The notes under the pieces were generated by a model. It did not search any database, had not been told where the DNA came from, and saw only the letters and a list, made by a program, of their open reading frames with translations. Positions 39,923 to 43,942 of a stretch of 64,000 nucleotides of DNA are shown here, piece by piece. The stretch comes from an uncultured Succinivibrionaceae bacterium (GTDB lineage Bacteria; Pseudomonadota; Gammaproteobacteria; Enterobacterales; Succinivibrionaceae), in assembly GCA_949286015.1 (NCBI GenBank), contig CASEBB010000001.1, forward strand, positions 1 to 64,000, read 5' to 3'. Every line of letters starts with the position of its first letter. Positions within the stretch are counted from its first letter, which is position 1. The position numbers were made by a program, and so were the translations under genes.

Positions 39923-40503
39923 GGCAGGTGATCTCAAAGGCCGCTGGTGCGGTCAGTTCTCTTTGCGGGTCTCTTGGCGTGTTTCTTGGCCTGTGCACAG
40001 AGCTTACAGGCAGTGCTGGGTGCGACCTTTGTGGGGAGAGCGTCAGACTAGGAGCTGCTGTGGCTTGTGCGTGGTGCTGAAGAGAAACAAAACAAGGACG
40101 AAACAGAAGCTTTGTGGGGTGGAACCGCAGCCGTGCTTAGAGCTAAAACTGTAAGCTTGCTGGTGGCGTCGACACCAAGGGCAGCTAAGACTTTTTGCAG
40201 GTCTCAGTTGATGGCGAAAATTATACTCAAAGCCCCCATAAAGTCGCAATTGAGCACGGTAAACATAAGCTCAGATGAATGGGGGAGAGGCAAGAGCGCA
40301 ATGCAGCACAAGTGGGGTATTTTTGGTTTTTGTCTGCAGGGGTTTGCGGTATGATGAGAGCTAGGTTTTGCTCTTTACTCCGTGCGCACTCGCATCCACC
40401 TGCGTCAGGGCACTTCCAGCGCCCACCAGCAAAAGGGCACTCCCAGCGCTGCGCAGCGTAAGGCGCGCCTTTCTTGTTTCACCCATCGCTCTTGGCCTTA
40501 AGC
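39923..40503. other. Divergent zipA/cysZ region
   Basis: No gene is seen. Two near-identical 16-base segments (AGGGCACTTCCAGCGC and AGGGCACTCCCAGCGC) lie at about 40407 and 40434, just before cysZ. Confidence 0.5.
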
Positions 40504-41286
40504 ATGATCAAAGACAGTTCTAACCAAGAAATCTCAATCTGGAATATGGTTGGCTACCTCGGATCCGGCCTGCAATTAGCCCTCTCCAAAGAGTGCCGCC
40601 TCTATGTGGTCATACCAATCATTATCAACTTTTTGGTGCTGGCCCTTGGTGGCTATCTGGTCGTTCAGACCATTTCGGGCTTTTTACAGCAGTACCTTGA
40701 TCTGCTGCCAGAGTGGCTTAACTTCTTAAGCTACGTGCTGTGGATCTTTCTCGCGCTGACCATGGGCTTTGTCTTTTGCTACATCTTCTCCACAGTCGCG
40801 ACCATTATTGCTTCACCTTTTTACGGCATGCTGGCCGAGAAGGCCGAGGGCGTGATTCGTGGGGCGCCATTTGCGGCAGGCAGTGATGATGGCTTTGCCG
40901 CTGTCATCAAAGACGTGCCACGCGTGATTAAGCGTGAGTTACGCAAGATGGCTTACTACCTGCCACGCGTGATTGCCTGCCTGATCATCTCCTTTATTCC
41001 GGTCATTAACGTCATCTCCCCAATCTTATGGTTTTTACTGGCGGCATGGATGATGTGCATTCAGTACGTCGACTATCCATATGACAACCACAAGATCTCC
41101 TTTGATGACATGAAGAAGGACTTGCAGAACCAGCGCTTAGCCTCGTTTGTGATGGGGGCAGTGATTTCGCTGGCGATGACGGTGCCTATTTTGAACTTGG
41201 TGATTCCACCTGCTGCGGTGTGTGCTGGCACCAAGTACTATGTAGAGATGCAAAAGCGCTATACCATTGATGTGGCGCTGCGCTAA
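40504..41286 (+). CDS. cysZ: CysZ sulfate permease
   Basis: 260 residues (E. coli 253). Inner-membrane sulfate uptake protein, with membrane segments near 25-50, 65-100, 150-185 and 210-240. Matches include SYVLWIFLALTMGFVFCYIFSTVATIIASPFYG and AWMMCIQYVDYPYDNHK. Divergent from zipA, as in E. coli. There cysK and ptsH follow; here ptsI-like comes next and both are missing. The ATG at 40504 is chosen by homology; no strong ribosome binding site. Confidence 0.93.
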   Translation: MIKDSSNQEISIWNMVGYLGSGLQLALSKECRLYVVIPIIINFLVLALGGYLVVQTISGFLQQYLDLLPEWLNFLSYVLWIFLALTMGFVFCYIFSTVATIIASPFYGMLAEKAEGVIRGAPFAAGSDDGFAAVIKDVPRVIKRELRKMAYYLPRVIACLIISFIPVINVISPILWFLLAAWMMCIQYVDYPYDNHKISFDDMKKDLQNQRLASFVMGAVISLAMTVPILNLVIPPAAVCAGTKYYVEMQKRYTIDVALR

Positions 41287-41539
41287 GAAACGCTCAAAGC
41301 TACTGCAACCAACTACAGCCACAGCCATAGAGCTAAGCCAACAGTGAGTGAGTGAGAACTAAGCCAGCTGTGCTAAGCAACAGAGATAAAACTGCGGCCG
41401 CTTTCCTTACGGGAATCGCTCAAGCGGCCAGCAGAGCACAGAGGAAGCGTTACGCTCCGCTGTTGCCAGCGGTGTGATCTTGGCGCTGTGGTCGTGGTGA
41501 CAAAAGGTGCTGCTCAGCGTGTGAGGCGAGGAGGATGTA

Positions 41540-43240
41540 ATGTACACCATGTCAGGAATCACTGTCTCTGAAGGCGTCAGTGAGGGCTTTGCCTTTTTAC
41601 TGCTGCCGCAGACGGTGTCCACTGAGACCGAAGCTACGCGGGCTCTTAGTCCTAGCGATGAGCGCTTAAAGTACCTCAAGGCCAGTCGTGAGTTTGCCAA
41701 CAAACTCAATAACGCCATGTCAGGCACTGTCCCTGATAAGGTGCGTGACCTCTTTGGGGCGGTGGCCTCGTATATCACCAACTCTGGCAACATTAACGCG
41801 ATTGATGAGCTCATTGCGCAAGGACAAAGTGCAGTTGAGGCTGCGCAAAACGTGCTCCTACCAAAGATTGCACGCTTTTCCCACGACGCCGATGCTGAGG
41901 ATGGTGATGATGACGACCCAGAAATGCAGGTCGTAGCCTCAGAGCTCAGCTCCCTGATGCGTGACTTTATTGCCACTATCAACTCCACCGGTACCGATGA
42001 TGAGGCGGAGGTGCCTCAGCTCAATCGCCCGTGTGTCATCATTGCCTCTGATCTCACCCCCGCCCGTTTTCTCTCTTTGCACACCGAGCTCGTGCGCGCG
42101 GTGGTGTTAGAGGGTGGTCAAGCCTCAGGGCACTTAGGCACGGTCTTACGTGACCTGTGCATCCCTGCCATTTACGGGGTAAAGGGCGCGCTGACCATTA
42201 AAAATGGTGAGCATGTGCTGGTGGATGCCACACGGGGCACTATCCTTGTCGAGCCACCACAGGACACGGCGCGAGCGCTGATTGCCCAGCAGGATCTCTT
42301 TAATAGCAATAGCGATGATGACGACCCACCTGATAGCGACTTACAGGTGACGGTGGCTGGCTCGATGGGAGCTATTGGTGAAATTGACCGCTTAGCGCGC
42401 TACTTAAACCACGGCTTAGGCCTGCTGCGCTCGGAGTTTCTCTTTTTAAACTACCACCATGAGCCTAGCGTCGAGGAAATGGTGCGCACCTTTACCTCGA
42501 TCTTCTCTAAGATTCCCAAGACCGCGCCGCTCACCGCACGTACCTTTGATTTTGCGGGTGATAAGAAGCCACTCTTTACTGTGGAGTTAGACCACGAGGG
42601 CCCTCTTTACAGCTACGGTGCGCAGGTAGGCTCGGCACTGCTCAAAAAGGAATTACGGGCGCTGTTGCTCGCGTCGGCCGGACGGGAGATTCACATCGTA
42701 TTTCCGCTCATTACTCGCATTAGTGAGGCGAAGGCCCTGACCACAATGCTGGCACGGGTGATTGAGGAGCTGGAAAGTGATAATGTGCCTTATGGCAAGT
42801 CGCATGTGGCGGTGATGATTGAGACGCCTGCGGCGGTGCTCTCGGCAAAGGCCTTTGCCGCGTATGGCGAGATGTTTTTAATCGGCACCAGCTCGCTTGC
42901 TGAGTACGCTTCGGCTCCACGTCCACCTGAGGACTACTTTACGCCTGCGCTCTCAAAGATGATTGCCATTGCCTGCAAGGGCGCGCATGATAGCCATGTG
43001 CAGGTGGGTATCGCGGGGCGCTTTGCGATGCGCACGGAGTTGCTGCCGTTTTTCTTATCACTGGGAGCCAGCTATATCACCACGGATGCAACGTCGATTG
43101 CTAAGGTGCGTAAGGAGCTGCAGCAACTTGCAGATCAGGGCGTAGTACCGCACTTTGATCAGAAGCTGTACAACAGCTTAATGGAGGTGGCCTCCAGTGA
43201 CGATCTCCAGCGCTTGCTCTTTGCAGACGATTTTGCGTAG
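41540..43240 (+). CDS. ptsI: Enzyme I-like PTS protein lacking catalytic residues
   Basis: 566 residues, about E. coli Enzyme I length (575), recognisable throughout. The phosphohistidine segment is GGQASGHLGTVLRDLCIPAI (192-211), with one extra residue so that His198 is offset from the usual GGRTSH pattern. PEP-domain residues partly remain: Arg297 in LLRSEF, Arg334 and Asp341-Lys342 in ARTFDFAGDK, Glu428 in IETPAA. The GTNDLTQY signature is GTSSLAEY, so the Mg-binding Asp is Ser452. The catalytic Cys in GMCGELAGD is Ala492 (GIAGRFAMR). The Arg in FLGWRAIR is also lost. It probably cannot transfer phosphate from PEP. Good AGGAGG before the ATG. Confidence 0.9.
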   Translation: MYTMSGITVSEGVSEGFAFLLLPQTVSTETEATRALSPSDERLKYLKASREFANKLNNAMSGTVPDKVRDLFGAVASYITNSGNINAIDELIAQGQSAVEAAQNVLLPKIARFSHDADAEDGDDDDPEMQVVASELSSLMRDFIATINSTGTDDEAEVPQLNRPCVIIASDLTPARFLSLHTELVRAVVLEGGQASGHLGTVLRDLCIPAIYGVKGALTIKNGEHVLVDATRGTILVEPPQDTARALIAQQDLFNSNSDDDDPPDSDLQVTVAGSMGAIGEIDRLARYLNHGLGLLRSEFLFLNYHHEPSVEEMVRTFTSIFSKIPKTAPLTARTFDFAGDKKPLFTVELDHEGPLYSYGAQVGSALLKKELRALLLASAGREIHIVFPLITRISEAKALTTMLARVIEELESDNVPYGKSHVAVMIETPAAVLSAKAFAAYGEMFLIGTSSLAEYASAPRPPEDYFTPALSKMIAIACKGAHDSHVQVGIAGRFAMRTELLPFFLSLGASYITTDATSIAKVRKELQQLADQGVVPHFDQKLYNSLMEVASSDDLQRLLFADDFA

Positions 43241-43334
43241 CAGGTGACGTAAACTACTCTAAAGCTGGTACTGGGGAGAGCTTGCTGCCTGAGTACTGGC
43301 GCATCATTCCCTTGGGCAACACGAGGACAAGGTC

Positions 43335-43892
43335 ATGGGCTTCTTTTCTGGTTTATTCAAGCACGTGACAAAGACCGATGAGGCGGCGCCGTCGGTCGCT
43401 GAGGTCAAGAACATTAACGCTGACGTGACCTTATATGCACCGGTTACGGGCACGCTTTTACCTCTAGAGGAGGTGCCGGATATCGTGATCTCAGAAAAGG
43501 TCATGGGTGATGGCGTGGCGGTAGTACCAGAGAGCGAGTCGATTGTGGCGCCGTGTGATGGCGTGATCTCGCGTTTACTGCCGACAAAGAATGCCTTTGC
43601 GGTGCGCATGGCTGAGGGCTTGGAGGTGTATGTCACCTTTGGTGTAGAAGCGATGGAGCTTAAGGGCGATGGCTTTACCACCAAGGTGAATTTGGGCGAT
43701 GAGGTGAAGAAGGGCGATCCGATCATTATGACGGAGCCGCGCTTATTGAGCTCGAAGCTCAAGTCGACCATTACCTCGATGATTGTGATTAAGAGCACGG
43801 GCGATATTGATAAGATCTTTGCGGCGACGGGCAAGTGCCATGCAGGGGTGACGCCGGTGCTGTGGATTACGCTGCACAATAAGGCGCAATAG
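43335..43892 (+). CDS. crr: EIIA-Glc-like protein lacking both phospho-histidines
   Basis: 185 residues (E. coli 169). Full EIIA-Glc fold: TLYAPVTGTLLPLEEVPDIVISEKVMGDGVAV, VAPCDGVISRLLPT, ELKGDGF, KSTITSMIV, GVTPVLWITL. His75 of E. coli (NHAFS) is Asn86 (KNAFA), and His90 (FVHFGI) is Thr101 (YVTFGV). Without them phosphate cannot be accepted. EIIA-Glc also binds permeases, glycerol kinase and adenylate cyclase, so a regulatory role independent of phosphate is possible. It lies 94 bases after ptsI-like and is followed by a terminator; AGGA precedes the ATG. Confidence 0.9.
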   Translation: MGFFSGLFKHVTKTDEAAPSVAEVKNINADVTLYAPVTGTLLPLEEVPDIVISEKVMGDGVAVVPESESIVAPCDGVISRLLPTKNAFAVRMAEGLEVYVTFGVEAMELKGDGFTTKVNLGDEVKKGDPIIMTEPRLLSSKLKSTITSMIVIKSTGDIDKIFAATGKCHAGVTPVLWITLHNKAQ

Positions 43893-43911: not shown

Positions 43912-43942
43912 AGGGGACAGCAGAGGCTGTCCCTTTTGTTTT
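43912..43942 (+). terminator. Terminator after crr-like
   Basis: 8-bp stem GGGACAGC (43914-43921) with GCTGTCCC (43926-43933), then TTTTGTTTT. Confidence 0.9.

Follow-up and report, generated by a model that had tools for sequence, protein, structure and literature searches.

A cysZ-linked Enzyme I-like and EIIA-Glc-like pair that has lost phosphotransfer residues is conserved in Succinivibrionaceae

Background

Regulation by the PTS is a form of phospho-signalling, in which Enzyme I and EIIA-Glc act by the phosphate that they do or do not carry. In Enzyme I (E. coli numbering), E431 and D455 are Mg2+ ligands, C502 is the proton donor and H189 is the phospho-acceptor; R296, R332, K340 and E431 are taken here to be the PEP-binding residues, and H76, M78 and R126 presumably face HPr in the E. 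coli complex. The E. coli genes are arranged in the order ligA-zipA|cysZ-cysK-ptsH-ptsI-crr.

The locus described here encodes an Enzyme I-like pseudoenzyme (pEI) and an EIIA-Glc-like protein without a phospho-His (pEIIA), which may be compared with two regulatory systems. The PTS-Ntr (PtsP-PtsO-PtsN) offers the parallel of a regulatory PTS without sugar transport, but it uses phosphotransfer, and a PtsP with intact residues is encoded separately in the host genome. The EIIA-Glc H91A protein of Vibrio cholerae is likewise an EIIA without its phospho-His, and works as a dephospho-mimic, regulating its partner as the dephospho form (PMC6877527), which indicates that an EIIA lacking the His can regulate. 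By contrast with pEIIA, whose state is natural, fixed and selected, H91A is a laboratory mutant and is accompanied by no Enzyme I relic. Within the open-licence literature on dead Enzyme I/EIIA pairs, the PTS of Succinivibrionaceae and CysZ with EIIA-Glc, nothing relevant was found, and the pair appears novel within that scope.

Organization of the locus

The window, the whole stretch of 64,000 nucleotides that was analysed, comes from a genome whose relatives by sequence are Succinivibrionaceae, and the nearest of these bear the name Anaerobiospirillum; the host is a member of the family resembling Anaerobiospirillum. A conserved trio of genes on the plus strand starts with cysZ (40474..41286; NCBIfam CysZ, 282 bits against a cut-off of 140) and continues with pEI (41540..43240, 566 aa; assigned by Pfam, NCBIfam, PDB alignment and AF2 model) and pEIIA (43335..43892, 185 aa; assigned by Pfam, alignment and AF2 model). 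An earlier note, made from the letters of this DNA, had described the last two frames as full length, with ribosome binding sites and a terminator, and these features are found: both frames are complete, a GGAGG at 41530..41534 (+), whose last base lies 5 nt ahead of the pEI start, is a probable ribosome binding site, and 3' of pEIIA a stem of 10 bp followed by T-rich sequence (43912..43935, +) is a probable intrinsic terminator of the trio.

In the window, ligA and zipA lie on the minus strand upstream of cysZ, and pntB and pntA lie on the minus strand past pEIIA. This arrangement matches the E. coli gene order, and the trio thus sits at the ancestral position, minus cysK and ptsH. The proposed descent from a cysZ-(cysK-ptsH)-ptsI-crr locus therefore stands as far as the zipA-cysZ-ptsI-crr placement goes, but cysK and ptsH themselves are absent from the locus, and no remnant of HPr was found in the 253 bp that separate the ptsI-like gene from cysZ.

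Enzyme I-like protein pEI

Pfam matches of pEI cover the PEP-utilisers N, mobile and C domains, so that the domain architecture and order of Enzyme I are present, and an AF2 model (mean pLDDT 82) matches the fold of E. coli Enzyme I (2hwg). The score of pEI against NCBIfam TIGR01417 is 178 bits, under the curated cut-off of 341.7, which marks it as a strongly diverged Enzyme I. In E. coli numbering, His189, R296, R332, D335, K340 and E431 are kept, whereas N454S, D455S, C502A and E504R are substituted, R465 is displaced and replaced, and the HPr surface is replaced. The GTNDLTQY motif reads GTSSLAEY, with Ser451 and Ser452 (codons at 42890..42895, +) at the N454 and D455 positions of the Mg2+/PEP site; the reported change of the Mg-binding Asp to Ser452 is thus confirmed, and the neighbouring N454 is also Ser. 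Ala492 (43013..43015, +) aligns with the proton donor C502, as the earlier note had it, and Arg494 (43019..43021, +) aligns with E504, reversing its charge. These replacements are fixed or nearly so in the family: Ser-Ser occurs in 39/39 pEI sequences, Ala for Cys in 38/39 (Val once) and Arg for Glu504 in 36/39. At the HPr-facing positions, H76 is changed to Ala or Val, M78 to Gly and R126 to Gln, Asp or Glu; the putatively acquired Enzyme I found elsewhere in the host genome (see below) retains the residues of this face.

Two further claims about pEI fared less well. The phospho-His segment had been read as rearranged, but His198 (codon 42131..42133, +) aligns with E. coli His189 in the PDB alignment, and this position is His in all 38 pEI sequences that cover it. 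The Arg of FLGWRAIR is missing from pEI, as observed, but its loss was rejected as a mark of inactivity, since sister genera with otherwise intact catalytic residues also lack it.

EIIA-Glc-like protein pEIIA

pEIIA matches PTS_EIIA_1 (Pfam) at 126 bits, and its AF2 model (mean pLDDT 82) matches the EIIA-Glc structures 3our, 2mp0 and 1f3g. It shares with E. coli (1f3g) and Vibrio (3our) EIIA-Glc the fold (TM 0.91), the EVPDVV-ISEK face segment and an N-terminus of the membrane-binding type, a short hydrophobic segment that resembles the E. coli membrane anchor. The folds of both proteins are thus kept, as had been supposed. Both phospho-accepting histidines are changed, again in agreement with the earlier reading: Asn86 (43590..43592, +) occupies the His75 position, and Thr101 (43635..43637, +) that of the phosphorylated His90, which is lost in 40/40 members. 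The partner face of EIIA-Glc is kept only in part: V40 and E43 are retained and F41I and F88Y are fixed, each in 40/40, K69R is fixed or nearly fixed, and D94 and V96 vary.

Conservation and selection

In a survey of 57 genomes from 14 genera of Succinivibrionaceae, mostly draft assemblies, about 40 species belonging to 8 genera (g1, g2, g3, g4, g5, g7, g9 and g11) were seen to carry the trio in the same order and at the ligA-zipA-cysZ position, which gave sets of 39 pEI and 40 pEIIA sequences, window included. The pair is carried by the type strains Anaerobiospirillum succiniciproducens DSM 6400, Succinatimonas hippei YIT 12066 and Succinivibrio dextrinosolvens DSM 3072. cysZ lies immediately 5' of pEI in 35 relatives, and outside genus g1 the intergenic gaps within the trio are mostly -1 to 26 bp. 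Identity is at least 43% inside the family and falls to 24-29% outside it, where, among the matches listed, the proteins are other Enzyme I-like proteins. Sequencing error or chance was rejected as a source of the residue changes, the same ones recurring in about 40 species represented by isolates and MAGs.

Several measures point to selection on both proteins. Against the closest relative (L080, dS about 0.2), dN/dS is 0.014 for pEI and 0.033 for pEIIA, compared with 0.040 for cysZ, and the frames are intact in about 40 species, which bears out the view that selection has maintained both; a check of relatives gave no sign of frame decay or relaxed selection. The description of the genes as vestigial is accordingly apt for catalysis, but not if it means decay. 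Columns of pEI that lie no more than two residues from one of 13 active-site positions show 93% conservation, compared with 63% for the remainder of the two C-terminal domains, and none of 10000 random sets in a permutation test was as high. The serine codons at the two replaced sites are divided into 34 AGY/5 TCN and 3 AGY/36 TCN; a switch between AGY and TCN needs an intermediate residue or a double change, suggesting that serine itself is selected. In one genome (G044; L115:3063-4449, minus strand), pEIIA directly follows cysZ and pEI is missing, so that the pair is not strictly inseparable and pEIIA can persist without pEI. In another (G047), neither gene was detected at this locus.

Origin of the pair and the PTS of sister genera

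Contig C3 of the host genome encodes another Enzyme I, in which no catalytic residue is missing. The genome also has the intact PtsP, two HPr proteins that contain HARPAG, an EIIA that retains both His (contig C28), an EIIBCA (C128) and an EIIBC (C135); a short contig (C221) carries an Enzyme I C-terminus, an HPr and an EIIC. In the host genus, this intact Enzyme I (L017:4280-6838, G000:C3) has about 300 low-complexity Ala/Thr/Pro/Gln residues before the Enzyme I domains. Across the family, PF02378-type EIIC is absent from 34/57 genomes.

In the Enzyme I tree, the pEI sequences fall into one clade (SH-aLRT 100), which has a long stem and whose sister group (99) consists of Enzyme I from genera g6, g8 and g10, with catalytic residues intact; pEIIA is likewise one clade. 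The tree indicates that the pair in the window is the vertically inherited locus and not a duplicate. The earlier note had allowed that a second intact ptsI/crr/ptsH set might make these genes diverged paralogues; Enzyme I, HPr, EIIA and EIIBC/EIIBCA are indeed present, but by the tree the pair is not a duplicate of them, and a recent duplication of the intact set was rejected, because pEI does not group with the intact Enzyme I of the host. The complete, intact Enzyme I of the pEI genomes groups instead with Bacillota sequences in a quick tree whose deep placements are provisional, and it looks acquired. This Bacillota-type Enzyme I occurs in 8/8 pEI genera and 0/6 other genera, a co-occurrence that may count as a single event, since pEI is one clade. 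A tidy reading would be the acquisition of a new PTS core that released the old pair from phosphotransfer.

The old locus of the sister genera keeps the catalytic residues, but its ptsH is lost or lacks the His. Immediately 5' of ptsI, g6 and g14 have HPr-like genes (L120:5687-5950 and L129:5541-5825, both on the minus strand; PTS-HPr well above the Pfam cut-off) whose phospho-His is lost (GLVTRKV and GIDVKNL), while a separate NPr-like protein keeps its His. In g8 and g10, a ptsH adjacent to ptsI was not found, and in g6 and g8 an extra gene lies between cysZ and ptsI. The ptsI of one g14 genome (G056; L129:3753-5461, minus strand) is split over several frames and is broken or misassembled. 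In g12 and g13 (L130-L134), EIIA-Glc has both His, except for one with His75 changed to Asn, and the sole Enzyme I match is PtsP-sized; HPr domains with HARPA in g12 (L286, L287 and L288) lie in open frames of about 400-443 aa and are possibly fusions. The missing or His-less ptsH of the sister genera may represent intermediate states of the same process.

Candidate partners

No CysD- or CysH-type proteins were found in the pEI clade, where PF01507 gave four strong matches, in frames of 581-782 aa, of which the two that were read start unlike CysD or CysH; in a g8 genome, by comparison, a CysD-like gene precedes a CysN-like one. This absence suggests that cysZ is kept for another reason, and its retention with the pair and no evident sulfate activation makes it likelier that CysZ is functionally connected with the pair than that it simply feeds in sulfate. 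Co-evolution of pEI with CysZ, measured from distance matrices (0.59), at first pointed to a special link but was dropped as evidence: the neighbouring zipA, used as a control, scored higher (0.74), so that the value does not tell a partner from a neighbour.

Class I adenylate cyclase (CyaA) is found in all 14 genera (55/57 genomes), and all 57 genomes have EIIA_1 proteins. In the window's genus (G000:C4:4615-6609), the class I adenylate cyclase lies in frames of about 1300-2300 aa, compared with about 830 aa elsewhere in the family, and several members have insertions within the Pfam domain.

Function of the pair

The explanation favoured here, with a rough probability of one half, is that the trio is a vertically inherited ptsI-crr locus turned into a conserved, non-phosphotransferring regulatory unit, in line with the earlier note's suggestion of a fixed or differently sensed regulatory pair. 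pEI, probably no longer phosphorylating HPr, would serve as a metabolite-responsive scaffold, binding PEP or another small anion in the invariant rebuilt pocket, together with R296, R332, K340, E431 and His189. pEIIA, presumably locked in a dephospho-like state, would be the effector, acting on a membrane target through its partial EIIA-Glc face and membrane-binding N-terminus. CysZ would be the first candidate target, being co-encoded without an evident sulfate-activation pathway, followed by adenylate cyclase or sugar permeases. The recurring gene order and residue changes, the low dN/dS, the conserved pocket, the mostly tight spacing, the Bacillota-like Enzyme I of the same genomes, the loss of the HPr face, the capacity of an EIIA without its His to regulate, and the retention of cysZ favour such a unit. 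The retained His189 leaves room for phosphorylation of pEI and counts against it, as do the partial conservation of the EIIA partner face, the loss of pEI alone in G044 and the failure of the co-evolution measure to single out CysZ.

Other explanations share parts of this evidence. pEIIA could act mainly on the classical targets of EIIA-Glc (class I adenylate cyclase, sugar permeases and glycerol kinase) as a permanent dephospho form, the link to cysZ being only inherited gene order. This is not very likely: the cysZ-ptsI neighbourhood is ancestral and the near-universal CyaA and EIIA_1 proteins would suit it, but CyaA is just as present in genera with a normal EIIA, E. coli CyaA activation requires EIIA~P, which pEIIA cannot form, and members of the pEI clade keep the pair close to cysZ, compared with the intervening gene in g6 and g8. 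The invariant His189, and the normal HPr with HARPAG in these genomes, would also accommodate a pEI that reads the intact PTS as a phosphate acceptor, with HPr~P passing phosphate to His189 in the Mg2+-independent reverse reaction and pEI~P altering the binding of pEIIA or CysZ; the replacement of H76, M78 and R126, and a downstream EIIA that cannot take phosphate, make this unlikely.

That the rebuilt pocket is the most conserved part of pEI, with the replacement residues themselves fixed, might even mean that pEI has gained a new activity and turns over an anionic substrate, by means of Ser-Ser-Ala-Arg with R296, R332, K340, E431 and His189. Such an activity is improbable, the Mg2+ ligand and general acid being lost and no new known catalytic motif having been recognised. 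Pseudogenes in progress, still unbroken, would explain the lost catalytic residues, the absence of pEI in G044 and the failure to detect either gene at the locus in G047. This reading deserves hardly any credence and, judged from sequence, is already refuted, the frames being intact across 8 genera with low dN/dS and fixed replacements.

Significance

A clade of gut succinate producers has thus retained, over a long evolutionary time and with strong selection, two proteins whose residues for the chemistry are gone, with intact Bacillota-like PTS proteins encoded elsewhere, and this suggests that the present role of the old pair is purely regulatory or ligand-sensing. The natural separation of the proteins from their chemistry offers a direct test of which functions of Enzyme I and EIIA-Glc depend on phosphotransfer. 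A warning for annotation follows as well, since genes labelled ptsI and crr would be taken to provide a phosphotransfer route for which the residues give no support. A more tentative and less likely idea is that CysZ, pEI and pEIIA form one device, a membrane channel under the control of a two-protein PTS relic: the rebuilt PEP pocket of pEI would sense a central metabolite with no chemistry involved, and pEIIA would relay its state to the channel. If true, this would be a PTS-derived ligand sensor without phosphate transfer, conserved over much of a bacterial family.
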